A DNA stretch of 45,134 bases from the NCBI GenBank assembly GCA_947588755.1, contig CANPZB010000010.1, forward strand, positions 1-45,134. Reading direction: 5' to 3'. Positions 2,025 through 45,134 of the stretch are shown one piece after another; positions within the stretch are counted from its first letter, which is position 1, and every line of letters starts with the position of its first letter. The translations under genes were made by a program, and so were the position numbers. Below the pieces are notes generated by a model, which was given only the letters and a program-made list of their open reading frames with translations, was not told where the DNA came from and did no database searches. The stretch comes from Candidatus Gastranaerophilales bacterium. Lineage in GTDB: Bacteria; Cyanobacteriota; Vampirovibrionia; Gastranaerophilales; Gastranaerophilaceae.

Positions 2025-2241
2025 AAAGTGAAAGCGGATTGCGAGCTGAGGGCGAAGGCTTGAGTGTGAAAGAATGAAATTCTGCAACACTCAACCGCAG
2101 ACCCGTTAAACGCGAGCAACCAAGCAGGTTCTTATCGGGTGCTAAAGCACCAAGACAATACCTAAACCAAGACTTGTCATGCTGAACAGTAATGTCATCC
2201 TGAATTTATGAACAGGCAAAGTGAAAACATCAAGAAATGCA
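2025..2241 (+). other. Gene-free stretch with hairpins and repeat fragments
   Basis: No gene is visible here. The stretch is more GC-rich than its surroundings up to about 2160. It can form a long hairpin at 2060-2094 (arms TTGAGTGT/ACACTCAA with an inner AGAAT/ATTCT pair) and a small one at 2138-2151 (GGTGCT/AGCACC). Neither has a T run, so they are not obvious terminators. Fragments of the dispersed TGTCATCCTGAA-type repeat occur at about 2175-2210. Confidence 0.5.
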
Positions 2242-2280
2242 GAACAGACAAAATTGATTGATACATCGGAAGAATAATTT

Positions 2281-2314
2281 AAAAAAAAAGAAGCGGTCTT
2301 ATTTTAAGACCGCT
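2281..2314 (-). terminator. Intrinsic terminator downstream of sigma-28 promoter A
   Basis: Perfect 10-bp stem (2292-2301 with 2305-2314, AGCGGTCTTA/TAAGACCGCT) and a 3-nt loop. Read on the minus strand it is followed by nine T (complement of A 2281-2289), a strong intrinsic terminator. It lies only about 35 nt after the predicted start site of sigma-28 promoter A. Confidence 0.8.
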
Positions 2315-2344
2315 AAAATTATTAATTTCCCTTTTGTTCCCATA
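2281..2344 (-). ncRNA. Predicted short sigma-28 transcript A (about 60 nt)
   Basis: This is the segment between the sigma-28 promoter at 2351-2377 and the terminator at 2281-2314. It would give an RNA of about 60 nt that is mostly the terminator hairpin. It also holds a 14-codon reading frame (MGTKGKLIILAVLK) running into the hairpin, with its ATG almost at the predicted start site and no separate ribosome site. It may be a small RNA, a leader left behind after loss of a downstream gene, or simply a blocked promoter. An almost identical copy is at 16507-16570. Confidence 0.35.
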
Positions 2345-2350
2345 TTGTAA

Positions 2351-2377
2351 TTATCGGCAAAAATTTTTTAAACTTTA
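2351..2377 (-). promoter_or_regulatory. Sigma-28 (FliA/SigD-type) promoter, copy A
   Basis: On the minus strand: TAAAGTTT (2377-2370), an 11-nt spacer, then GCCGATAA (2358-2351). This equals the published enterobacterial FliA consensus TAAAGTTT-N11-GCCGATAA at every defined base. The same sequence recurs at 16577-16603, and two variants sit before the large genes at 16943-19267 and 21620-23584. Confidence 0.8.
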
Positions 2378-2400
2378 ACACATTACACCCGAGCCGAGCC

Positions 2401-2430
2401 ATGCTATGCTATGCTATGCTATGCTATGCT
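2401..2430 (-). repeat. Pentanucleotide array, six ATGCT units (copy A)
   Basis: Six perfect tandem ATGCT units (AGCAT on the minus strand) between the sigma-28 promoter (23 bp away) and the GTAAA/TTTAC inverted repeat (30 bp away). The other three modules have four, five and four units with identical 23-bp and 30-bp flanks, so unit number is the only length variable. Confidence 0.9.
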
Positions 2431-2460
2431 ATGAGCAGTGTAGCAAGGGTTTCGGGGTTT

Positions 2461-2504
2461 GTAAAATAATATTTACAATTCGTTATATTTGATGTAGGAC
2501 ATCA
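2461..2504 (-). promoter_or_regulatory. Conserved double inverted repeat upstream of sigma-28 promoter A
   Basis: Two dyads: GTAAA-N6-TTTAC at 2461-2476 and TGATGT-N3-ACATCA at 2490-2504. Both occur in all four modules at fixed spacing from each other, which suggests operators for one or two DNA-binding proteins. The protein is not identified. Confidence 0.5.
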
Positions 2505-2550
2505 CATTTGTTGATGATTTAAAATATTTATCCGCAAAATATAATTATAA

Positions 2551-13953: not shown

Positions 13954-16503
13954 TTGACTCAACAGAATATATTTGATGACGGGAAAATTATTCCCGTAAA
14001 CATCAGGGAAGAAATGAAACGGTCATATATTGATTATGCCATGAGCGTAATTGTCGGCAGGGCGTTACCTGACGTAAGGGACGGATTAAAACCCGTACAC
14101 AGACGTATTTTATACGCAATGAACGAACTTGGCATGACCCCCGATAAACCGTTCAGAAAATGTGCACGTATCGTCGGTGAAGTTCTCGGTAAATATCATC
14201 CGCACGGTGACAGTTCCGTATATGAGGCACTTGTACGCCTGGCTCAGGATTTTAATACAAGATATCTCATAGTGGACGGACACGGGAATTTTGGTTCCGT
14301 TGACGGCGACGGTGCTGCTGCTATGCGTTATACGGAAGCAAGAATGCATAAAATTACAACCTCAATGCTTGCGGATATAGATTGTGAAACGGTTGAATTT
14401 GAACCTAACTTTGACGGTTCTTTGCAAGAACCTTCGGTTCTTCCCGTAAGATTACCGATGCTGTTGTTAAACGGTGTTTCCGGTATCGCTGTAGGTATGG
14501 CAACAAATATTCCGCCGCACAATCTGGGTGAAATAGTTGACGGAACAATTGCACTTATTGATAATCCTAACATAACCGTTTCGGAATTAATGGAATATAT
14601 CAAAGGTCCTGATTTCCCGACTGCCGCAACAATCATAGGTATTAATGACATAAAACAGGCTTATGAAACGGGCAGAGGTTCAATAAAAATGCAAGCCGTT
14701 GCTAATATTGAAGAAATCGCAGGCGGTGCGGGCAGACAATCCCGTACGGCTATAATTATTACCGAAATACCGTATCAGGTTAATAAAGCGGTTCTTATCG
14801 AAAAAATTGCCGAATTGGTAAAAGACCAGAGAATAACAGGGATTTCGGATATAAGAGATGAATCCGACAGAGAAGGTATGCGTGTCGTAATTGAATTAAA
14901 ACGTGACGCAAAACCTGACGTTGTAAAAAATAATTTGTTCAAATTTACTCAGCTTTCAACAACTTTCGGTGTAAATATGCTTGCACTTTGCGGCAAACAG
15001 CCCCGACTGCTTAACCTTTATGAAGTTTTGTCGGAATTTGTTGAACACAGGGTGGAAATTGTTACACGAAGAACAATATTTTTCCTCAAAAAAGCCAAAA
15101 TCAGAGCACATATCTTGGCGGGTTTAATTATTGCACTTGGTTCTATTGATGAAGTAATAGAATTAATCAAAAGTTCAAAAACCACTGATGATGCAAGAGT
15201 AGGGCTTATGAGCCGTTTCGGACTGGATACGGATCAGGCAAATGCTATTCTGGAAATGCAATTAAGAAGGTTAACGGGACTTGAACAAGACAAGGTTAAA
15301 GCTGAATACGACGAACTTGTTAAGAAAATTGCCGAATATGAAGAAATTCTTGCAAGCCGTCAAAAAATTCTTGATATTATTAAAAAAGAATTGCTTGAGG
15401 ACAAAGAAAAATACGGTGATGACAGAAAAACTCAAATTCTTCCCGAACAAGGCGAAGTAACTATCGAAGATTTGACTCCCAACACGCCTATGGCGGTATT
15501 TATTACTCATCAAGGGTATTTAAAACGTATTTCACTTGATACGTTTGAACGTCAAAACCGTGCCACACGAGGCAAATCAGGTATAAAAACCAAAGAGGAT
15601 GACGATATTCAGCACTTCTTTACTGCAATGATGCACGATAAAGTTCTGTTCTTCTCGTCAAAAGGTACGGTATACAGCCTGAATGTATATGATTTCCCCG
15701 AAGGCGGACGTCAGGCTAAAGGTTTGCCCATTGTAAACGTACTTCCGATAGAACAGGACGAAAAAATAACGGCAGTAGTTCCGATTAGCACATTTTCAAA
15801 AGATTTAAACCTTATAATGCTTACCAAAAAAGGTTATATAAAACGTATTGAACTTGATAATTTTTCAAATATAAGAAGAAACGGTATTATAGCTATCGGT
15901 TTAGAAGAAGACGACGAGTTATGCTGGGTAAAACTTGCCACAGCGAGAGATGAAATCATTATAGGGACTTCCTGCGGTATGGCAATAAGATTTCCGATAC
16001 AGGATTTACGACCGTTAGGCAGAAGTGCAAGAGGAGTAACTTCCATGAAGTTACGCAAAGGAGATACTATTGTAGGCTGTGATATAGTTCCGAAAGATTA
16101 TGACGCGGACTTATTGGTAGTAACTTCCGACGGTTTCGGTAAACGCACAAAATTATCCGAATTCAGAAGCCAGAACAGAGGCGGAATAGGTCTTATAGCT
16201 ACAAAATTCAAATCCGCACAATCGAAACTTGTTGCACTGACTATTGTACAGGATTCTGACGATATAATGATGGTTACGGCAAACGGAGTTGTAACCAGAT
16301 TAAACGCAGGCTCAATTTCCCGTCAGGGACGTCCGGCAACAGGCGTAAGGGCACAAAATCTGGTTGAAAACGACACCGTTGTTTCGGTTAACAAAATTGT
16401 TAATCCCGATGAAGATGAACAAATAAAAAAAGATGCAGAAGGAATGGATAACGACCTCGAAATTGCCGAACAGACAAAATTGATTGATACATCGGAAGAA
16501 TAA
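13954..16503 (+). CDS. gyrA: DNA gyrase subunit A
   Basis: An 849-aa type IIA topoisomerase subunit that cuts and rejoins DNA. The start is TTG, supported by a strong GGAGG. The catalytic tyrosine is Tyr126 in AAMRYTEAR. The quinolone-resistance region reads [10 protein letters not shown] (82-91), with Ser87 at the E. coli Ser83 position and Glu91 at the Asp87 position, both wild-type-like states. The C-terminal domain contains six-bladed pinwheel repeats and a gyrase-box variant QNRGGIG, which supports GyrA rather than ParC. gyrB is not in the window. The last eleven codons are duplicated at 2242-2274. Confidence 0.96.
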
Positions 16504-16506
16504 TTT

Positions 16507-16540
16507 AAAAAAAAAGAAGCGGTCTTATTTTAAGACCGCT
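16507..16540. terminator. Terminator between gyrA and sigma-28 module B
   Basis: Perfect stem 16518-16527 with 16531-16540 (AGCGGTCTTA/TAAGACCGCT). On the minus strand it is followed by nine T (A 16507-16515), a strong terminator for the sigma-28 transcript. On the plus strand the tail is only AAAATTATTAATTT, so it may end gyrA transcription less efficiently. Confidence 0.8.
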
Positions 16541-16570
16541 AAAATTATTAATTTCCCTTTTGTTCCCATA
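16507..16570 (-). ncRNA. Predicted short sigma-28 transcript B (about 60 nt)
   Basis: The promoter at 16577-16603 points at the 3' end of gyrA, and transcription would stop at the hairpin after about 60 nt. The sequence is the donor of copy A (2281-2344) and differs by one base in the leader. It includes the same 14-codon frame (MGTKGKLIILAVLK). It could be a small RNA or an empty promoter site. Confidence 0.35.
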
Positions 16571-16576
16571 TTATAA

Positions 16577-16603
16577 TTATCGGCAAAAATTTTTTAAACT
16601 TTA
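16577..16603 (-). promoter_or_regulatory. Sigma-28 promoter, copy B
   Basis: Minus strand: TAAAGTTT (16603-16596), an 11-nt spacer and GCCGATAA (16584-16577), a full match to the FliA consensus. No gene follows; the terminator lies about 37 nt beyond the promoter. Confidence 0.8.
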
Positions 16604-16626
16604 ACACATTACACCCGAGCCGAGCC

Positions 16627-16646
16627 ATGCTATGCTATGCTATGCT
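16627..16646 (-). repeat. Pentanucleotide array, four ATGCT units (copy B)
   Basis: Four perfect ATGCT units, 23 bp from the sigma-28 promoter and 30 bp from the GTAAA/TTTAC dyad. Confidence 0.9.
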
Positions 16647-16676
16647 ATGAGCAGTGTAGCAAGGGTTTCGGGGTTT

Positions 16677-16720
16677 GTAAAATAATCTTTACAATTCGTT
16701 ACATTTGATGTAGTACATCA
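16677..16720 (-). promoter_or_regulatory. Conserved double inverted repeat, copy B
   Basis: GTAAA-N6-TTTAC at 16677-16692 and a perfect TGATGTA-G-TACATCA dyad at 16706-16720. Homology with module D (23647 onward) extends some 45 bp further, through ATGATTTACTGAACAACATG. Confidence 0.5.
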
Positions 16721-16723
16721 CAT

Positions 16724-16942
16724 TCGGTCGGATTTTAATGATTTACTGAACAACATGTTACGAAAATTCTAAGATTATGCCCGTGTTAATGCTGTATATA
16801 AAAGAGCCTGAAACAATAATAATGTCATGCTGAACTTGTTTCAGCATCTTATTTGTGCAGTACCTATACATACATGACCCTGAAATAAATTCAGGATGAC
16901 ATGAGGGTGTTCGGGATGGCAAAGGGCAACACAGAGAAAACA
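16724..16942. repeat. Gene-free stretch with palindromic dispersed repeat
   Basis: Holds the tail of module B and two palindromes of the dispersed repeat family: ATGCTGAACTTGTTTCAGCAT near 16825-16850 and a related one near 16875-16905 next to TTCAGGATGACATG. A short frame here would encode CHPEFISGS and MLKQVQHD, the well-known translation of such repeats; I do not count it as a gene. Confidence 0.6.
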
Positions 16943-19267
16943 TTATGAAAATGCTTTGAATGAACGTTCTATGTTTTTGTCAATTACACTTTTCAAAGAA
17001 TCATATTCCGTTTGAAGTGCCGTATGTTCGGTTTCAAGACGTTTTAAGTCAGAATCGTATTTTTTATCTTCGATTTCAATTTCATTTAACGCATTTTTGT
17101 ACTTGGTTTCCGCTTTTGCAATGGCAATTTCATTTTGAGTTGTGGAAATATCAGCCGCGTTGCCGTATTCAATTGAAGTCCAGTCATAAGTACCCATTTT
17201 GGGGTAGGTTATTGAACCTTTTTCGTTAAACGATACCTGTTCAAGCGTAATTACACCGTGTTCAAGTGCAAATTGAATCCATTCAGCATTATTCATAAGG
17301 TTGGAATCAAGTTCTTTGCATTTATTGACTGTTGATTTAGTAGTTTCCGTTAAACCCCCCATTCTGTACCAGAGGTTTTTGTACCATTGGTATTTCGGGT
17401 CATCGGTATTAAAATTAAATTCTGTTTCAGGTGCCGGTTCTGTACCTATTTCTTTTAGCTTATTCTCGGCAATTTTTTGTTGACTTTTTAAATTATCGTA
17501 GTCGTTCAGCCATTCTTGGTATTTGGTGTAAAAATCGTTGTATTGTTTAATACAATTTGCAGCCCAAGTAGCAAATTCTCTGTTATAATTTTCTCTTTCT
17601 TCCTGTTGTATGGTAGCCGCTATAGCATCTAAATTTTCACCAACGGCAATACCGCTGAAAATATTATAACTAAACATATCATCTGCAAAATATCTCATCC
17701 ATGATGTTTGCGTTGCATGGTCATATTCCCAATCCTGTTTGGACTGTTCATTCATTTCCCAAATAGTCTTTTTAGTGGTGCTTTCTAAACCTGTTACGGG
17801 ATCTAATTCTGTTACTTCAAAAATATGATTAGGATCGTCCGTTTCGGGATTATTATATTCCATATCAACCGGTCTGCAATTATTACCCGAGTTATCAGTA
17901 AAATCGGCAAACATATGATAATAACTGCTTGTAGAGGTATCTGAATTTACAATATCAATTATTTCCATTACGTAAGCAAAAGTATCAATAATGTTTGCAA
18001 CTAAGCTTTTTGCAGAATTTGGATTTTCGCTGTTTAATTTGGTCAAATTATTAATAAATTCATGATATCCCGGATCCATAACATTTATTGATTCGGTACC
18101 GTTTGCAACCTGAGCACCGATATTTTCACCCGGTACCAAATTGGTATGCAATTCAATTTCACTTAAATGTCCTGTCCCGAAATTATCACTATAGCCCAAT
18201 TGGCTGCCTAAAGTCGAAAAATTCAAAGTACGTCCGGATGTCACACCTACAATATCAAGTATACTGCCTTCTAAAGCATTACCATATCCGAAAATAAGTG
18301 CGGAAAGAAGGTTAGCCAAATTACATAATTCTTTTATGGTTGTTTCTTCGTGCCAATGGTCATCACCGGAGTTAAAAAGAACTTCCGCATTATCCAATGA
18401 ATTCCAGTATTTACTGAAATTAGCATTACTATCAATTTTATTATTTTTTGCGTATTCTGCTTTTATATCATCCAACTCGCGAGGCTTAACCGCCGTGCAT
18501 CCGCTAAATGCATTAAGTTGCGGAGAACAGTTAAGTTTATCTTTATATTTAGTAGTGTCTTTTCCTGCTTCAATTGTATTGCCGTTACTATCTTTACCGT
18601 TATTAATTTGTGTTAAAGCACTATTGATATTGCTGACCCAACTCGGATAATAACCGCTATTATCAGAATTCTTATATATTTGATTTAAAGTATTTAAAAA
18701 GGCTGTTTGATTAGCAGTATTGTCAGCACCAAAAGTAGTATTATCAGTATAAGTCAAACTTGCAGGAAATGTTCCTTTAGGAAGATCGGGAAGATACAAA
18801 TTGGCTGTATTCTGTAATTCTTCTATGGTTTTGCCACCTAAAATTATTTCCTTTTGTCTGTTATATTCATCAATTTCAGCCTGATTAGTAATTACTTCTT
18901 TTGATTTTCCAATACCGTATTTAGATAGAAAATCTTCTAAAGTTTTACTGTTTGTGTAATTGTTAAAATCCTGACTGCTTACGAGAAGCTGACCTTGTGA
19001 ATTTACAATACCGTACTGGTTTTTGAGTTCGCCGTAACTCGTTAATATTGAAGGAGTTAACAACTGATTTGTTCTCAAACCGTTTTGGTCATAGCTTACG
19101 TAAGTAAATTGATTATCGTTTAACGCCGCCATATAATCGCTGCTGGCTTCGCTTGATTTGTCGGCAAGACGGAGTTTTGAATTTGTTATCAATTGAGAAC
19201 GCATTTCGTTGTCCGTTAAACGAGCCGTTATACTTAATAATCTTGCTTGTGCTGCCGACATTCCCAT
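16943..19267 (-). CDS. Large sigma-28-controlled protein with conserved helical ends (paralogue 1)
   Basis: A 774-aa protein of unknown function. It starts MGMSAAQARLLSITARLTDN, followed by a helical, Ser/Ala/Lys-rich stretch to about 70. The middle (about 100-620) is Asn/Thr/Tyr/Asp-rich. The last 65 residues form a heptad-like helix ending TEYDSLKSVIDKNIERSFK. There is no Sec signal peptide and no membrane segment. The 654-aa protein at 21620-23584 shares both ends and a region before the final helix, while the middle differs. Helical ends around a variable core and a sigma-28 promoter 30 nt upstream are features of axial flagellar proteins, so export by the flagellar type III apparatus is a reasonable inference, not shown. 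AAAGGG precedes the ATG. It is not recognisable as flagellin, FlgK or FlgL. Confidence 0.85.
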   Translation of the reverse strand: MGMSAAQARLLSITARLTDNEMRSQLITNSKLRLADKSSEASSDYMAALNDNQFTYVSYDQNGLRTNQLLTPSILTSYGELKNQYGIVNSQGQLLVSSQDFNNYTNSKTLEDFLSKYGIGKSKEVITNQAEIDEYNRQKEIILGGKTIEELQNTANLYLPDLPKGTFPASLTYTDNTTFGADNTANQTAFLNTLNQIYKNSDNSGYYPSWVSNINSALTQINNGKDSNGNTIEAGKDTTKYKDKLNCSPQLNAFSGCTAVKPRELDDIKAEYAKNNKIDSNANFSKYWNSLDNAEVLFNSGDDHWHEETTIKELCNLANLLSALIFGYGNALEGSILDIVGVTSGRTLNFSTLGSQLGYSDNFGTGHLSEIELHTNLVPGENIGAQVANGTESINVMDPGYHEFINNLTKLNSENPNSAKSLVANIIDTFAYVMEIIDIVNSDTSTSSYYHMFADFTDNSGNNCRPVDMEYNNPETDDPNHIFEVTELDPVTGLESTTKKTIWEMNEQSKQDWEYDHATQTSWMRYFADDMFSYNIFSGIAVGENLDAIAATIQQEERENYNREFATWAANCIKQYNDFYTKYQEWLNDYDNLKSQQKIAENKLKEIGTEPAPETEFNFNTDDPKYQWYKNLWYRMGGLTETTKSTVNKCKELDSNLMNNAEWIQFALEHGVITLEQVSFNEKGSITYPKMGTYDWTSIEYGNAADISTTQNEIAIAKAETKYKNALNEIEIEDKKYDSDLKRLETEHTALQTEYDSLKSVIDKNIERSFKAFS

Positions 19268-19296: not shown

Positions 19297-19324
19297 CTAT
19301 CGGCATATCCCTCAAAAGTCTTTA
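19297..19324 (-). promoter_or_regulatory. Sigma-28 promoter of the 774-aa protein gene, copy C
   Basis: Minus strand: TAAAGACT (19324-19317), a 12-nt spacer and GCCGATAG (19304-19297), which is TAAA-N16-GCCGAT, within the sigma-28/sigma-D range. The predicted start site is about 22 nt before the ATG, leaving room for the AAAGGG ribosome site. Confidence 0.75.
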
Positions 19325-19347
19325 GCAGAGTACACCCGAGCCGAGCT

Positions 19348-19372
19348 ATGCTATGCTATGCTATGCTATGCT
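19348..19372 (-). repeat. Pentanucleotide array, five ATGCT units (copy C)
   Basis: Five perfect ATGCT units, again 23 bp from the promoter and 30 bp from the dyad. The odd unit number puts the upstream dyads about half a helical turn away from their phase in modules B and D. Confidence 0.9.
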
Positions 19373-19402
19373 ATGAGCAGTGTAGCAAGGGTTTCGGGGT
19401 TT

Positions 19403-19495: not shown

Positions 19496-19846
19496 TTAAA
19501 GATTAATTTGGGACAAAATATATTCCAGCCGCTTTTTATCGTGAAGATACCACATGCCGATAAGTGTTTCAAACGCAGTGGCAAGGCGGTATTCGGCTTG
19601 ATTTGAACGACGTCCGACGGGTATGGGCAAATTTCTGCCGCGGCGGGATATTTCTTTTTCTTCTTCCGTTAAAAGGGGTTCTATTTTATCCAAAAGTACC
19701 GCCTGAAACTCCGTCTTAACTTTTTGGGTTGTAATTTCGTGCAGTTTTTTGGAATTGTTTGTCATAAGTATGGTTTTTTCGCGGACAATAAGTTCCCATA
19801 CCGCATCCCCAAGATATGCCAAGTTTCTTAAATTCATTTCCTGCAT
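19496..19846 (-). CDS. mrnC: Mini-ribonuclease III
   Basis: A 116-aa RNase III catalytic domain without the double-stranded-RNA-binding domain. It matures 23S rRNA precursors in the organisms where it is known (Firmicutes, cyanobacteria). NLAYLGDAVWEL carries the catalytic Asp14, and RRGRN plus ATAFETLIGMWYL correspond to the second acidic motif. Slightly short against a usual 120-145 aa. The ATG at 19846 lies 8 nt after a TATAAT (19860-19855) and has no Shine-Dalgarno sequence, so it may be leaderless. An alternative start at 19837 has AGGAA only 2 nt upstream. Flanked by module C. Confidence 0.88.
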   Translation of the reverse strand: MQEMNLRNLAYLGDAVWELIVREKTILMTNNSKKLHEITTQKVKTEFQAVLLDKIEPLLTEEEKEISRRGRNLPIPVGRRSNQAEYRLATAFETLIGMWYLHDKKRLEYILSQINL

Positions 19847-19889
19847 AAAATCATATTATAATAAAAAAGCCTGCAGACAAATTTTTTTA

Positions 19890-19918
19890 TTGAAATTCCG
19901 TAAATTGTATGTGATAAT
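19890..19918 (+). promoter_or_regulatory. Promoter of the Spy/CpxP-like gene
   Basis: TTGAAA (19890-19895), a 17-bp spacer and GATAAT (19913-19918). The predicted start site lies about 15 nt before the ATG and AAAGGGA lies between. Confidence 0.65.
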
Positions 19919-19940
19919 TTTTTGTGGAAAAGGGAAAATT

Positions 19941-20546
19941 ATGAAAAAATTAACTATATTATTTGTTTTGGCAATTCTTATAAGTTCATCCGTAATTGCA
20001 GCCGACAAAAACAACTATCCGACGGGAAAATATCAGGTTCACACCAAATGTCTTGATTTAATGACTTCAATGTACAACGAACGCGAAACCATGTACAATG
20101 TTTTAAACCTGACTCAAGACCAAATTAAATGTAAAAATCAAATTGACAAAGAAAGATATCAGGAACTTGACGTTGTTTTTAATCAGTTAATGCAAGAGAA
20201 ATATGTTCTTAAAAAACTTTGTGAAAACGGAGCCGATACCGCTTCCGTAAAGAAGCAGGAAAAAATTATAGACACTTATGAAAAAAAATTAAAAGACACT
20301 GCTGACAAATATGATGAAGAATTTTTGTCAATATTGAACAGCGAACAGCGTTCCAAATACAAAACCGTTAAAAAAATGGCAAGAAAAGAAATAAAATATT
20401 GTCAAAAAAATAAAGCTTTTTACAAACGCGACCCCAAATTAAGACCTTTCGGGCAAGCCATGTATACCACTGACAACGAAACATCTTTGTGTCCCAAGCA
20501 TAAAATTTGGCACCTTTTCGGAAGAAAATGCCGACCCGAAGAATAA
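19941..20546 (+). CDS. Periplasmic Spy/CpxP-like protein
   Basis: A 201-aa exported protein. Signal peptide MKKLTILFVLAILISSSVIAA. The mature part is a long, charged helical protein with two LTxxQ-like motifs, LNLTQDQIKCKNQIDKE near 57-73 and LNSEQRSKYKTVKKM near 135-150, as in Spy/CpxP chaperones of the periplasm. Eight Cys residues, including the C-terminal CPKHKIWHLFGRKC, suggest disulfides or metal binding, which classic Spy lacks. I chose the ATG at 19941 because it starts the signal peptide and has AAAGGGA upstream. Confidence 0.75.
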   Translation: MKKLTILFVLAILISSSVIAADKNNYPTGKYQVHTKCLDLMTSMYNERETMYNVLNLTQDQIKCKNQIDKERYQELDVVFNQLMQEKYVLKKLCENGADTASVKKQEKIIDTYEKKLKDTADKYDEEFLSILNSEQRSKYKTVKKMARKEIKYCQKNKAFYKRDPKLRPFGQAMYTTDNETSLCPKHKIWHLFGRKCRPEE

Positions 20547-20607
20547 ATTTGAATTAAATAAGATAAATAAATGATGATTTTTGGGTAATTATTATTATAA
20601 TTGAGTT

Positions 20608-21249
20608 ATGAAAAAGTTTGTTATCCTATACTTTTGCTTTTTACTCACGCTGAGTCCTTGTTTTGCATTCGGAAAGAAAAAAGTTTCCTCTGCAAGTTCT
20701 CAAAACAAAGGATATGTCGGAAAATTGCCCGATATTGCAAAAGATTATAATGCGGACGGGCAAAAAACCAACAAACCTGTTTATGAATATTCCGAAGATT
20801 TTAATTCCGCAAACGAAATCAAACCTGTTCCGAGGGAAAATCCGGCATTTGTAAACATAATTTTAAAATCCGATAAAACTTCACAATATGTAAATGATAT
20901 AAACGAAATTATCCCAATATTGGAAAATTTATATGACATAATCGAAAATGACGAAAGTTTACAGTTATTTGCGGCAAAAGTATATTTTTTGAACAAGAAC
21001 TGCGATTGGTTGAGAGAAAAATATCTTGAAAAACCCGAAAGCAGTTCGGTATCTTTCCAAAAACTAATGGAATTAAATCTGCATACCCGTTCGGTATCGA
21101 TATTACGGACCGAAGCCGTCAAGTATAACCCTTATCTGGCGTACGGCGGAAGCGGTTCGATTTATGAAGCAAATAATATAAATCAGCAGCTTGAATATTT
21201 AAAAACGGAAATTGAAGAAACTATAGTTGTTTTAAAAGATGCGAAATAA
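20608..21249 (+). CDS. Secreted protein of unknown function
   Basis: A 213-aa exported protein. Signal peptide MKKFVILYFCFLLTLSPCFAFG, then a Lys/Ser-rich linker, a Pro/Asn/Glu-rich region to about 90, and a helical C-terminal half (IIPILENLYDIIENDESLQLFAAK; EYLKTEIEETIVVLKD). I do not recognise a family. TATAAT at 20596-20601 lies only 6 nt before the ATG and there is no clear ribosome site, so the mRNA may be leaderless. It follows the Spy-like gene on the same strand after 61 nt. Confidence 0.72.
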   Translation: MKKFVILYFCFLLTLSPCFAFGKKKVSSASSQNKGYVGKLPDIAKDYNADGQKTNKPVYEYSEDFNSANEIKPVPRENPAFVNIILKSDKTSQYVNDINEIIPILENLYDIIENDESLQLFAAKVYFLNKNCDWLREKYLEKPESSSVSFQKLMELNLHTRSVSILRTEAVKYNPYLAYGGSGSIYEANNINQQLEYLKTEIEETIVVLKDAK

Positions 21250-21619
21250 TATTCGTTCGGGATGTCATGGTGGGGGTGTTCGGGATGACGTGCGGGTAGT
21301 GTATTGTTTGTCATAAACAGACAAAATGCGACTAAATAAGATCCTGAAACCGTCTTGGATTTGCTCCACGCTCACAGAGTTTCGCATTTGTGGCTTCGCC
21401 ACAGTATGCTCAATCTGTTCGCTATCCGGACTCGTTACCACTCCGTCCGTACGCAAATCCGCAAGTTCAGGATGACATGGTGGGGGTGTTCAGGATGACA
21501 TGAGGGGGGTAGTTAAGGGTGACAATTATTGTTCGGGATGTCATGGTGGGGGTGTTCAGGGTGACGTGGTGTGGGGCATGTGGAAAAATGACGAAAAACG
21601 CACGAAATGCCGCGAAAAA
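21250..21619. repeat. Gene-free repeat stretch downstream of paralogue 2
   Basis: Built from repeat fragments: several copies of GTGTTC(G/A)GGATGAC and GATGTCATGGTGGGGGTG, a poly-G tract of six at about 21503-21508, and a segment matching the block at 44530 (GCGGATTTGCGGACGGACGG family). No gene is supported. It includes the 60-bp direct repeat at 21291-21350. Confidence 0.6.
21291..21350 (+). repeat. 60-bp perfect direct repeat, left copy
   Basis: Identical over 60 bp to 23931-23990 (begins TGCGGGTAGTGTATTG, ends AAGATCCTGAAAC). The two copies lie in the same orientation on either side of the 654-aa gene and its sigma-28 module, 2640 bp apart. Reverse-complement relatives occur at about 44780-44840 and 44900-44955. 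Confidence 0.9.
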
Positions 21620-23584
21620 TTATGCACTGTACCGTTTGAATGTTTTTTCAATATTTTTAGTCAAAAGGTTTTTGACCGTATCATATTCCGTAGTTAATGA
21701 AGTTATTTCGGTATCCAAATTTTTCATTTTTAAATCTATTGTTTGTTCTTTAGCACTCAGACGTTCTTTTACGGTGTTATATTTCGCTTCCGCTTTGGCT
21801 ATCGCTTCGTCGTCACTTATTTCTTTAACGTATGTATATGTAGCGTAGTTTCTTTGATAATAATAATCATCGTCTGATATTGTTGTAATAAACATAGAAC
21901 CGTTTTGTATCATTTCCTGTAAATAATCAGGCTTACTAACTTCATCATTGCGAGACCAGCCGGATAAACAAATCTGATTAAATAATGTATCATAAAAGAC
22001 TACATCTTTGTAAGTATCGTCAAGTTTGACAGTATCAGTGTAAGTACATGAAAATATATCATCTACAAAACAACTTCCGCCAACATCACCGATTTTTACC
22101 TGATATCTGCTATTATTTAAATTTGCCAGTCCGCCTGTCATAAATTGTGCAAAATACGTCAGATAGGATTTTGCCATATTATTCATATTAATAATAACAG
22201 TACTTTCATTGTTTCTATCCCTACCGTTTCGCCCTTGGTTTGCAGCCGTAAATAAAAAGCCGATATGATTTTCCTTTTCCGTAAGTTCTTTAAATCTTAC
22301 ATCTTCCACATCATTAGCAAAAGAATATCTGGTACCGACCTTATCAAGGGCATTGCTTGTACCGCCGTTATTTTTTATACCGTTTTTATCTTTGCTTGAA
22401 GAATAAGACGAAAAGACATCTAAATCAGTACTATAATCATATAATTCGTTATATTTTCCGTTTTTAAATAAATCACCTTTTACGCCTGTCGCTTTGGCAA
22501 TTTGCCCCGGAGTATACTGAGTACCGTTTATATCATATACTTGAACTCCGTTACCGGTAATTAAATTGGCAAGAGCCTGTGAAGCATAATTCAACGCTGT
22601 TTGAATGGTTGCATTATCCCCGAAAATTTTTGTGAATTCGTCGTGAAGCCAGCTGATAAATCCGCCTTCCTCAACAAAACTGTTTTGAATAAGTCCGACA
22701 CCGGTAACGGGAGAGTTTTCGGAAGATATCCCCGCACAACCCGAATAATATTGCGTTGTATTATTACCAAAATTGAGTAAACTAGCCAATGTCATTCTGT
22801 CATAATAATTGGTAAGGTTTTTATAATTATCTTCCGTACGGTTTTCATTGCCATCCGGAAAATTTGAGCCAATACTGCCATCTTCGCTTTTTGTCCATGT
22901 AATTATTTGTAAGTATGTTGATGCTTCATGCTCACCATCAATATGGTCGGTATCGTTTTTAATATCATCATCACATTCATCACCATAGTATTTGCCGCTT
23001 AATTGGATGTTATCAGCCGGTTGATAAGCTTTCATTTCATCGCCTTTTGCCAAAATATCCGCATAGATAGAATCTAAAGTAATTTCCTTTGTTATCTGAA
23101 ATTCCAAACCGGATGAACCAAATCCCGCATTCTGGTTATAAGGTACAGAAATAGCTTTGTTGTAAGTACTTGGACCTATTTTATTATTATTTTTTAAAGC
23201 TTCAAGAAACTTGTCTCTGACATCAGAAGAAGGCAATGTCCCGAAACCTTCGGGAGGAATGTCCGCAGCTGCTGCCGCCTCAGCAAATTCTTTATCTAAC
23301 ACAATACCGCCTTTACTATTGGTTATAGTAACAGGTAAAAAGTTATTCAAAGTCGACGGAGTCATGAGCATTGCATAGTTTAATCGGTCGGTACTCGTAC
23401 CCGTTCCGTAGTAATCATATATCAGTTTTGTCTGACCTAAGGAATTTTGGTATTCGTTCGAAATGTTTTCCAAATCACGTGCTATAGATAATTTTTGATG
23501 TGATAAATTCATTGACTGAAATTCACAATCCGACTTCCTCGATGTAATTGTTAATAATCTTGCCTGTGATGCCGATAATCCCAT
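21620..23584 (-). CDS. Large sigma-28-controlled protein with conserved helical ends (paralogue 2)
   Basis: A 654-aa paralogue of the 774-aa protein. It starts MGLSASQARLLTITSRKSDC and ends with the helix AIAKAEAKYNTVKERL to TEYDTVKNLLTKNIEKTFKR. A pre-C-terminal segment also aligns (YLQEMIQNGSMFITTIS against WIQFALEHGVITLEQVS). The central 450 residues, rich in Asn, Gly, Tyr and Asp, show no obvious similarity. No Sec signal peptide or membrane span. ATAAAGGA precedes the ATG, and the sigma-28 promoter is 36 nt upstream. The cassette is bracketed by 60-bp direct repeats. Function unknown; exported surface or filament-associated protein inferred. Confidence 0.85.
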   Translation of the reverse strand: MGLSASQARLLTITSRKSDCEFQSMNLSHQKLSIARDLENISNEYQNSLGQTKLIYDYYGTGTSTDRLNYAMLMTPSTLNNFLPVTITNSKGGIVLDKEFAEAAAAADIPPEGFGTLPSSDVRDKFLEALKNNNKIGPSTYNKAISVPYNQNAGFGSSGLEFQITKEITLDSIYADILAKGDEMKAYQPADNIQLSGKYYGDECDDDIKNDTDHIDGEHEASTYLQIITWTKSEDGSIGSNFPDGNENRTEDNYKNLTNYYDRMTLASLLNFGNNTTQYYSGCAGISSENSPVTGVGLIQNSFVEEGGFISWLHDEFTKIFGDNATIQTALNYASQALANLITGNGVQVYDINGTQYTPGQIAKATGVKGDLFKNGKYNELYDYSTDLDVFSSYSSSKDKNGIKNNGGTSNALDKVGTRYSFANDVEDVRFKELTEKENHIGFLFTAANQGRNGRDRNNESTVIINMNNMAKSYLTYFAQFMTGGLANLNNSRYQVKIGDVGGSCFVDDIFSCTYTDTVKLDDTYKDVVFYDTLFNQICLSGWSRNDEVSKPDYLQEMIQNGSMFITTISDDDYYYQRNYATYTYVKEISDDEAIAKAEAKYNTVKERLSAKEQTIDLKMKNLDTEITSLTTEYDTVKNLLTKNIEKTFKRYSA

Positions 23585-23619
23585 TAATTTGTCCTTTATT
23601 TAAGTAAACTGTATATTTA

Positions 23620-23647
23620 TTATCGGCATATCCGTCAAAAGTCTTTA
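23620..23647 (-). promoter_or_regulatory. Sigma-28 promoter of the 654-aa protein gene, copy D
   Basis: Minus strand: TAAAGACT (23647-23640), a 12-nt spacer and GCCGATAA (23627-23620), with a perfect -10 consensus and TAAA at 16 nt. Confidence 0.78.
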
Positions 23648-23670
23648 GCAGAGTACACTCGAGCCGAGCC

Positions 23671-23690
23671 ATGCTATGCTATGCTATGCT
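23671..23690 (-). repeat. Pentanucleotide array, four ATGCT units (copy D)
   Basis: Four perfect units with the same 23-bp and 30-bp flanks as in the other modules. Confidence 0.9.
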
Positions 23691-23720
23691 ATGAGCAGTA
23701 TATCAAGGGTTTCGGGGTTT

Positions 23721-23764
23721 GTAAAATAATATTTACAATTCGTTACATTTGATGTAAGACATCA
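23721..23764 (-). promoter_or_regulatory. Conserved double inverted repeat, copy D
   Basis: GTAAA-N6-TTTAC at 23721-23736 and TGATGT-N3-ACATCA at 23750-23764, with one substituted base pair next to the centre of the second dyad, as in copy A. Confidence 0.5.
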
Positions 23765-23767
23765 CAT

Positions 23768-24207
23768 TCGGGTCGGGTTTTAATGATTTACTGAACAACA
23801 TGTCATGAAAATTATTTAAAATATTGAAATGTATTGTTGCGGTTATCGGTTTGCGGCAGCAATGTATGTAAAAGATCCTGAAACCGTCTTGGATTTAGTA
23901 TAAAAGATTTTGAAACGAGTTCTGGGTGGCTGCGGGTAGTGTATTGTTTGTCATAAACAGACAAAATGCGACTAAATAAGATCCTGAAACAAGTTCAGGA
24001 TGACATGGTGGGGGTGTTCAGGATGACATGGGGGGGGTAGTTAAGGGTGACATGGGTGGTGTGAGATGACAGGTTACAAGTCAATAATAGCAAGTAAAAA
24101 AGTAATTCTTTCTAAAGTTTTGTAAATATCTGACCTGAAAATTAGCAAAAAATCATGTTTTGAGGCATTAAAGAAATATCACAGATTTATGTATTAAGGA
24201 GTAAAAT
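23768..24207. repeat. Gene-free repeat stretch upstream of module D
   Basis: Contains about 45 bp shared with the outer side of module B, a GCCGTCTTGGAT-type fragment also present at 21350, the 60-bp direct repeat, GGATGACATG units and an eight-G run at about 24030-24037 whose counterpart at 21503 has six G. No gene seen before 24208. Confidence 0.6.
23931..23990 (+). repeat. 60-bp perfect direct repeat, right copy
   Basis: Identical to 21291-21350 and in the same orientation; together they bracket the 654-aa gene with its promoter module. Confidence 0.9.
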
Positions 24208-44434: not shown

Positions 44435-45134
44435 TAAACGGGAATTCAGGGTTTTAAATCAATATTGAACGAACAATAGTCACCCCGAACACCCACATGT
44501 CACCTTGAACTCTCACCATGCCATACTGAACTGCGGATTTGCGGACGGACGGAGTGAAAGGGCAGGGGAAGTGACACCTACACATGTCACCCTGAACACC
44601 CCCATGTCATCCTGAACTTGTTTCAGGATCTTATTTCGTCGCATTGGTTCAGTATCTTATACATACAGCATTGATACGGGAAGGTTTTAAGCCATGTAAG
44701 ACTTGATATGGCTAAGATGCTGAAATAAATTCAGCATGACATGGCGGGGGAAGTAATACCTACACATGTCATCCTGAACTCGTTTCAGGATCTTATTTCG
44801 TGGCATTTTGTCCGTTTATGACAAACAATACACTATTCCTATGTCATTCTAAACCCTTCATGTCATCCTGAACCCTCACATGTCATCCTGAACTTGTTTC
44901 AGGATCTTGTTTCGTGGCATTTTGTCCGTTTATGACAAACAATGCACTATTCCTATGTCATTCTAAACCCTTCATGTCACCCTGAATTTATTTCAGGGTC
45001 TTATTTCGTCGCACTGGTTCAGTATCTTTTACATACAGCATTGATACGGGCAGGTTTTAAGCCATGTTAGACTTGATATGGCTAAGATGCTGAAATAAAT
45101 TCAGCATGACAGAATTTTCGTGTTCTTGTTATCA
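44435..45134. repeat. Block of palindromic dispersed repeats
   Basis: No gene. The block is made of hairpin units such as TCCTGAACTTGTTTCAGGA (44610-44628, 44886-44904; variant 44772-44790), ATGCTGAAATAAATTCAGCAT (44717-44737 and again near 45087-45107) and CCCTGAATTTATTTCAGGG (44980-44998). Two larger periods are visible: about 110 bp recur at an offset of 370 bp (44631 against 45001), and about 100 bp at an offset of 114 bp (44772 against 44886). Pieces are shared with the stretches at 16800-16910, 21250-21580 and 23870-24070. Confidence 0.85.

Follow-up and report, generated by a model that had tools for sequence, protein, structure and literature searches.

Genomic setting of the two units

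The window, the whole stretch of 45,134 nt that was analysed, belongs to a 1.83-Mb Gastranaerophilales genome and carries two minus-strand units, copies A and B, in which a sigma28 promoter leads into a terminator hairpin. Unit B extends from 16603 to 16507 and unit A from 2377 to 2281. The features of the two units and their surroundings are as follows.

13954..16503, plus: gyrA, convergent neighbour of copy B
16688..16703, minus: copy B HLR1-like box TGTAACGAATTGTAAA, by motif resemblance
16653..16681, minus: copy B sigma70-like promoter TTTACA-17-TACACT, read from the sequence and conserved in related elements
16626..16649, minus: copy B pentamer repeat (CATAG)n, immediately 3' of the sigma70-like -10
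16577..16603, minus: copy B sigma28 (FliA) promoter, reading TAAAGTTT-N11-GCCGATAA
16541..16576, minus: copy B leader with AAAAGGGAAA box, without conserved ORF
16518..16540, minus: copy B terminator hairpin, perfect 10-bp stem, AGCGGTCTTA-TTT-TAAGACCGCT
16507..16515, minus: copy B nine-T run, read from the sequence
2235..2508, minus: copy A duplicated block, matching 16461-16724 and including the last ~40 bp of gyrA
2472..2487, minus: copy A HLR1-like box with an altered half-site (TATAAC)
2351..2377, minus: copy A sigma28 promoter, identical to that of copy B
2292..2314, minus: copy A terminator hairpin, perfect 10-bp stem
2281..2289, minus: copy A nine-T run, read from the sequence
19298..19324, minus: copy C sigma28-like promoter, serving a 774-aa gene (16943-19267)
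23621..23647, minus: copy D sigma28-like promoter, serving a 654-aa gene (21620-23584)

The sigma28 promoter pattern occurs twice in the window, at A and B, versus no match in 100 shuffles, and both promoters agree with the FliA-type consensus at 16 of 16 positions. In each copy 36 nt separate the -10 from the hairpin. Both strands of the window were scanned for perfect stems that are 8 bp or longer, contain 4 GC or more, and are followed by 5 T or more; strong terminators were found only at A and B. On the gyrA strand the hairpin has no T-run and is therefore oriented with the sigma28 transcript and not with gyrA. A plain gyrA terminator was rejected on these grounds, and the sequence that follows gyrA is unrelated in the 36 relatives listed.

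The A and B blocks align over 274 bp at 94.2% identity, with six mismatches and one 10-nt gap. Their similarity is explained by the copying of one block, and the ~40 bp of gyrA coding sequence in the A block identify A as the derived copy. An earlier sequence-only reading, which had described a sigma28 promoter running into a hairpin with nine T and two nearly identical copies of it, was accurate on both counts. It had also placed two genes and an empty site next to each other on the minus strand; gene C does adjoin B, but other ORFs (19496-21249) lie between C and D.

The large proteins encoded at 16943-19267 and 21620-23584 begin with MG(L/M)SA(A/S)QARLL, and the genome encodes paralogs at other places (L003, L008, and L011). 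Searches of Pfam at E<=0.001 and of NCBIfam at E<=0.1 matched neither protein. Palindromic repeats of the ATGTCATCCTGAACTTGTTTCAGGATCTTA type are dispersed in both orientations at 16822-16903, 21248-24071, and 44555-45111.

Across the genome that holds the window, the sigma28 pattern matched 14 times versus two matches with the reversed pattern. Besides A and B, an ORF of 60 aa or more begins within the next 200 nt at nine of 12 matches; the other three (L001, L002, and L010) have no such ORF in that interval, each with an ATG nearby. No ORF follows the promoters of A and B. The FliA gene of this genome scores above its curated cut-off, and the FliA-type promoter and its sigma factor are found together, as in a sigma28-dependent unit.

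The upstream promoter element

A 129-nt element upstream of the A and B units also precedes genes C and D. It contains a sigma70-like promoter, (CATAG)n repeats, and, ~95 nt 5' of the sigma28 -35, a box resembling the HLR1 motif. RpaB/HLR1 promoters of cyanobacteria (PMC6331805) are alike in that the box here reads TTTACA-N4-GTTACA on the opposite strand, and differ in that binding by an RpaB homolog is putative here. Homologs of RpaB are reported in melainabacteria (PMC3787301), which makes the HLR1 reading possible, if unproven.

A five-base tandem repeat starts 3-5 nt after the -10, at the transcription start, in nearly all promoters with an HLR1-like box. Within the window it occupies 16626-16649, 2400-2433, 19346-19375, and 23670-23693. 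It is present in 41 of 49 distinct candidate elements, gathered by similarity to the element of the window, and an equal run was reached in two of 2450 shuffles. The repeat unit varies (AGGAT, ATGGT, AGCAT, ATATG, ATGTT) while the period stays at five. Many of these promoters precede genes for unknown, effector-like proteins.

Distribution and layout of the unit

A search for the element in 191 genomes of the family returned some match at E<=0.001 in 70, many of them short. Two matched loci have the same ORF-less layout: in L116 (G067) the unit again converges on the 3' end of gyrA, and in L104 (G137) it converges on a gene read by eye as proA. Further ORF-less units were found in G137 and in genus g38. 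Two sequence-only models, whose E-values are rough, were built from 11 units including A and B (R1) and from 14 units of other species with A and B left out (R2). R2 recovered A and B at full length in the window (E 5.7e-9 and 1.1e-8); a third, partial match (E 0.013) falls on the leader of gene C.

When 383 genomes of the order were searched, R2 matches at E<=3e-6 turned up in 13. By our reading, ten of these contain ORF-less full-length units (G000, which holds the window, G137, and eight g38 genomes); in the remaining three the matches are gene leaders only. The spread is patchy, with full-length matches at this threshold in 10 of 383 genomes; the unit is present in eight of the 16 species of g38, and the genus of the window is represented by one genome in the comparison set. 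In total, 16 ORF-less units were counted in 10 genomes from three genera (g1, g7, and g38): three each in G137 and G197, two each in G000 and G133, and one each in G067, G193, G037, G095, G177, and G151. This count includes the G151 unit, whose stem is only 7 bp long and contains one mismatch, and a G137 unit cut by a contig end. It excludes three weaker candidates (G082, G101, and G026), a weak R1 match (L244), and a GCCGWWA pattern search in g38 that proved too loose, with matches near the reversed-pattern control.

The layout is nearly constant: an HLR1-like box, a sigma70-like promoter, a sigma28 promoter, a AAGGAAAAAAGGGAA-type leader, and a hairpin. When the 16 units and the three weaker candidates are tabulated together, 16 of 19 have a hairpin that begins 58-68 nt after the -35 starts; the others are one unit cut by a contig end, G101 (at 81), and G026, which has no clean hairpin. 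The HLR1-like box lies 82-109 nt upstream in 16 of 19, with A (changed half-site), G082, and G026 missing from the tally, and 11 of 19 have a five-base repeat between the box and the sigma28 promoter. Promoter, absence of a conserved ORF, hairpin with T-run, and conservation across species are thus found together, as in a free-standing, intrinsically terminated small RNA gene. RNAalifold returned no base pair from an 11-row alignment, which we attribute to poor alignment of hairpins that differ in sequence. An Rfam search of six sources found nothing above the gathering score inside the units; the sole match was a tRNA in L104, outside the unit.

Loci occupied by the unit

A locus between mutL, whose gene end was read by eye, and a gene beginning MKVDKTQ is retained in five species (G197, G095, G193, G177, and G133). 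Identity there amounts to ~0.85 for the box, 0.70 for the leader, and 0.74-0.81 for the terminator, versus ~0.4-0.5 across most of the intervening sequence. G197 has two diverged units in tandem at this locus, one of which was excluded from the five-species alignment. The pentamer repeat is unconserved here, so it is inessential to the unit. On G137:C52 (L124), a 940-aa gene is flanked by two ORF-less units on the same strand, with near-identical promoters; the contig ends within the last unit of the row.

The earlier reading had suggested that the region downstream of gyrA in relatives be searched for an occupied version of the site. No large gene behind a sigma28 promoter was found at the gyrA site in 80 relatives. 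In four of the 80 (L071, L079, L083, and L091; further pattern matches in L034, L070, and L080 are not counted), a sigma28-type promoter converging on gyrA drives an ORF of ~51-67 aa. Three of these small proteins are similar by eye and of the MINNxGNNLINT... type. With the ORF-less unit of G067, the end of gyrA is a place repeatedly used by sigma28 units.

Homology to the leaders of sigma28 genes

Those R2 matches of less than full length (E<=3e-6) that were inspected stop after ~55-84 positions and are the leaders of sigma28 protein genes. The proteins behind them mostly begin MGMA(A/S)SQARFL...; one is flagellin-like by eye and one begins MVADFSI.... The ATG lies 61-65 nt past the -35 in 10 of 15 inspected leader loci, the other five being cut by contig ends, and this position is that of the hairpin in the ORF-less units. 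By sequence comparison, genes and predicted small RNAs share promoter and leader and diverge at the start codon. Most sigma28 genes of the window's own genome share the leader poorly, a point against reading the RNA as a mimic of these leaders.

Regulators in the host genomes

FliA scores above the curated cut-off in nine of nine genomes, and FHIPEP (the FlhA family) does so in 11 of 11; a flagellar-type export system is therefore likely. Complete flagella occur in only some Gastranaerophilales, according to PMC4040986. Beside the full-length FlhA-type protein, each of the 11 genomes has one more FHIPEP-family match, a divergent one that covers profile positions ~307-655 in a frame of 484-502 aa; it lies at C26:4899-5933 in G000 and at one place in each of the 10 others.

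CsrA is the obvious binder of GGA-rich RNA. CsrB/RsmZ-type sponges of CsrA are similar to the units in being GGA-containing RNAs made together with a regulon whose leaders carry similar motifs. They differ in their partner: CsrA (PF02599) is absent from nine of nine genomes and was detected in three of 14 controls. CsrA is thereby excluded as the partner in these genomes, and a CsrA sponge was rejected.

Interpretation

We consider it more likely than not that A and B are copies of one conserved small RNA gene, dependent on sigma28, whose product mimics the leaders of sigma28 mRNAs. From its position, the sigma28 promoter would yield a transcript of ~65-70 nt, an A/G-rich leader that would end at the intrinsic terminator. 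The sigma70-like promoter could give a longer RNA of ~130-140 nt ending at the same hairpin. Judged by homology, the RNA would correspond to the 5' leader of a sigma28 protein gene with a hairpin in place of the start codon. It would be made together with sigma28 mRNAs and could titrate whatever binds their leaders, be it a protein, another RNA, or the ribosome, and in this way adjust the output of the regulon. For an RNA that is a leader without its message, a decoy for leader binders is the simplest function to propose. The hairpin may also partly serve neighbouring genes, such as mutL on the same strand.

Somewhat improbable, in our estimate, is a stand-alone small RNA that base-pairs with target mRNAs and resembles the leaders by shared ancestry only. 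The conserved box and the intrinsic terminator would suit such an RNA, and pairing is the usual mode of small RNAs (PMC10578931). However, the box resembles a ribosome-binding site in being rich in purines and could not pair with other such sites, and the structure predicted for A and B pairs it in part with the RNA's own U tail.

Of the two options first offered for A and B, a sigma28-dependent small RNA is strongly favoured by ORF-less units in two further genera and at several unrelated loci. The other option, an empty expression site, leaves the conserved leader, the constant spacing, and the islands at the mutL locus unexplained. As a scar of gene loss, it would have formed when recombination between near-identical promoters removed a coding sequence and left a refillable promoter, leader, and terminator. 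Homology to sigma28 gene leaders is what such a scar would also show; the derivation of A and B from one duplicated block, the row of units around the 940-aa gene, and the similarity of promoter elements within a single genome point the same way. Against this, leader, spacing, and hairpin are retained at separate loci and in separate genera, conserved islands persist at a syntenic locus in five species, and no large sigma28 gene was found at the site in the 80 gyrA relatives. We regard the scar as an unlikely account of the units, and recurrence of the layout in other genera makes a merely empty slot unlikely. The cassette idea survives chiefly as a likely evolutionary origin, for which it may hold given the homology of the 5' part to sigma28 gene leaders and the 940-aa gene between two ORF-less units in G137.

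It is very doubtful that transcription itself is the only function, with promoter and convergent terminator insulating gyrA or soaking up sigma28: units at gyrA (in two genera) and at proA (in G137) do converge with the neighbouring gene, but those at mutL and further loci share its strand, and a decoy promoter needs no conserved leader. A tiny peptide gene can be practically dismissed: the 14-codon frame (ATGGGA...) proposed near +1 exists in A and B, where its ATG falls about at the transcription start expected from the usual distance to the -10, but it is not kept in other units, whose frames differ, are longer, shorter, or missing, and in most of which the ATG falls 5' of the expected RNA start.

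The leader mimic may, more tentatively, exemplify a new class of regulators. Such leader-only RNAs would consist of a regulon's 5' leader that is terminated at the start codon and retained to act in trans as a decoy. Their control would be dual, by sigma28 and by an HLR1/sigma70 promoter of cyanobacterial type that carries a five-base repeat where transcription starts, and they would spread by copy-paste of a ~270-bp block.

Relation to known systems and significance

Compared by description, the units resemble the sigma28-dependent small RNAs UhpU, MotR, FliX, and FlgO of E. coli in their control by the flagellar sigma factor. Those RNAs are derived from UTRs (PMC10578931), whereas the units here stand alone, each under its own promoter(s) and closed by its own terminator, imitate sigma28 leaders, and at gyrA and proA lie opposite to the neighbouring gene. 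CJnc170 (FlmR) of Campylobacter jejuni, again compared by description, is likewise a FliA-dependent small RNA; leader mimicry, as proposed here, is unmentioned in the abstract of PMC11187230.

A literature search on promoters and sigma factors of Gastranaerophilales found no papers. If real, this would be the first small RNA gene that we found described for Gastranaerophilales, judging from titles and opening lines of abstracts on Melainabacteria small RNAs. It suggests a route by which small RNAs may be born, in which the coding part of a gene is lost, a terminator comes to stand where the start codon was, and the remnant is retained. It would also let one ask whether the leader of a message alone can persist as a regulator. 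For these largely uncultured gut bacteria, the sigma28 regulon would gain a post-transcriptional arm that operates without CsrA.
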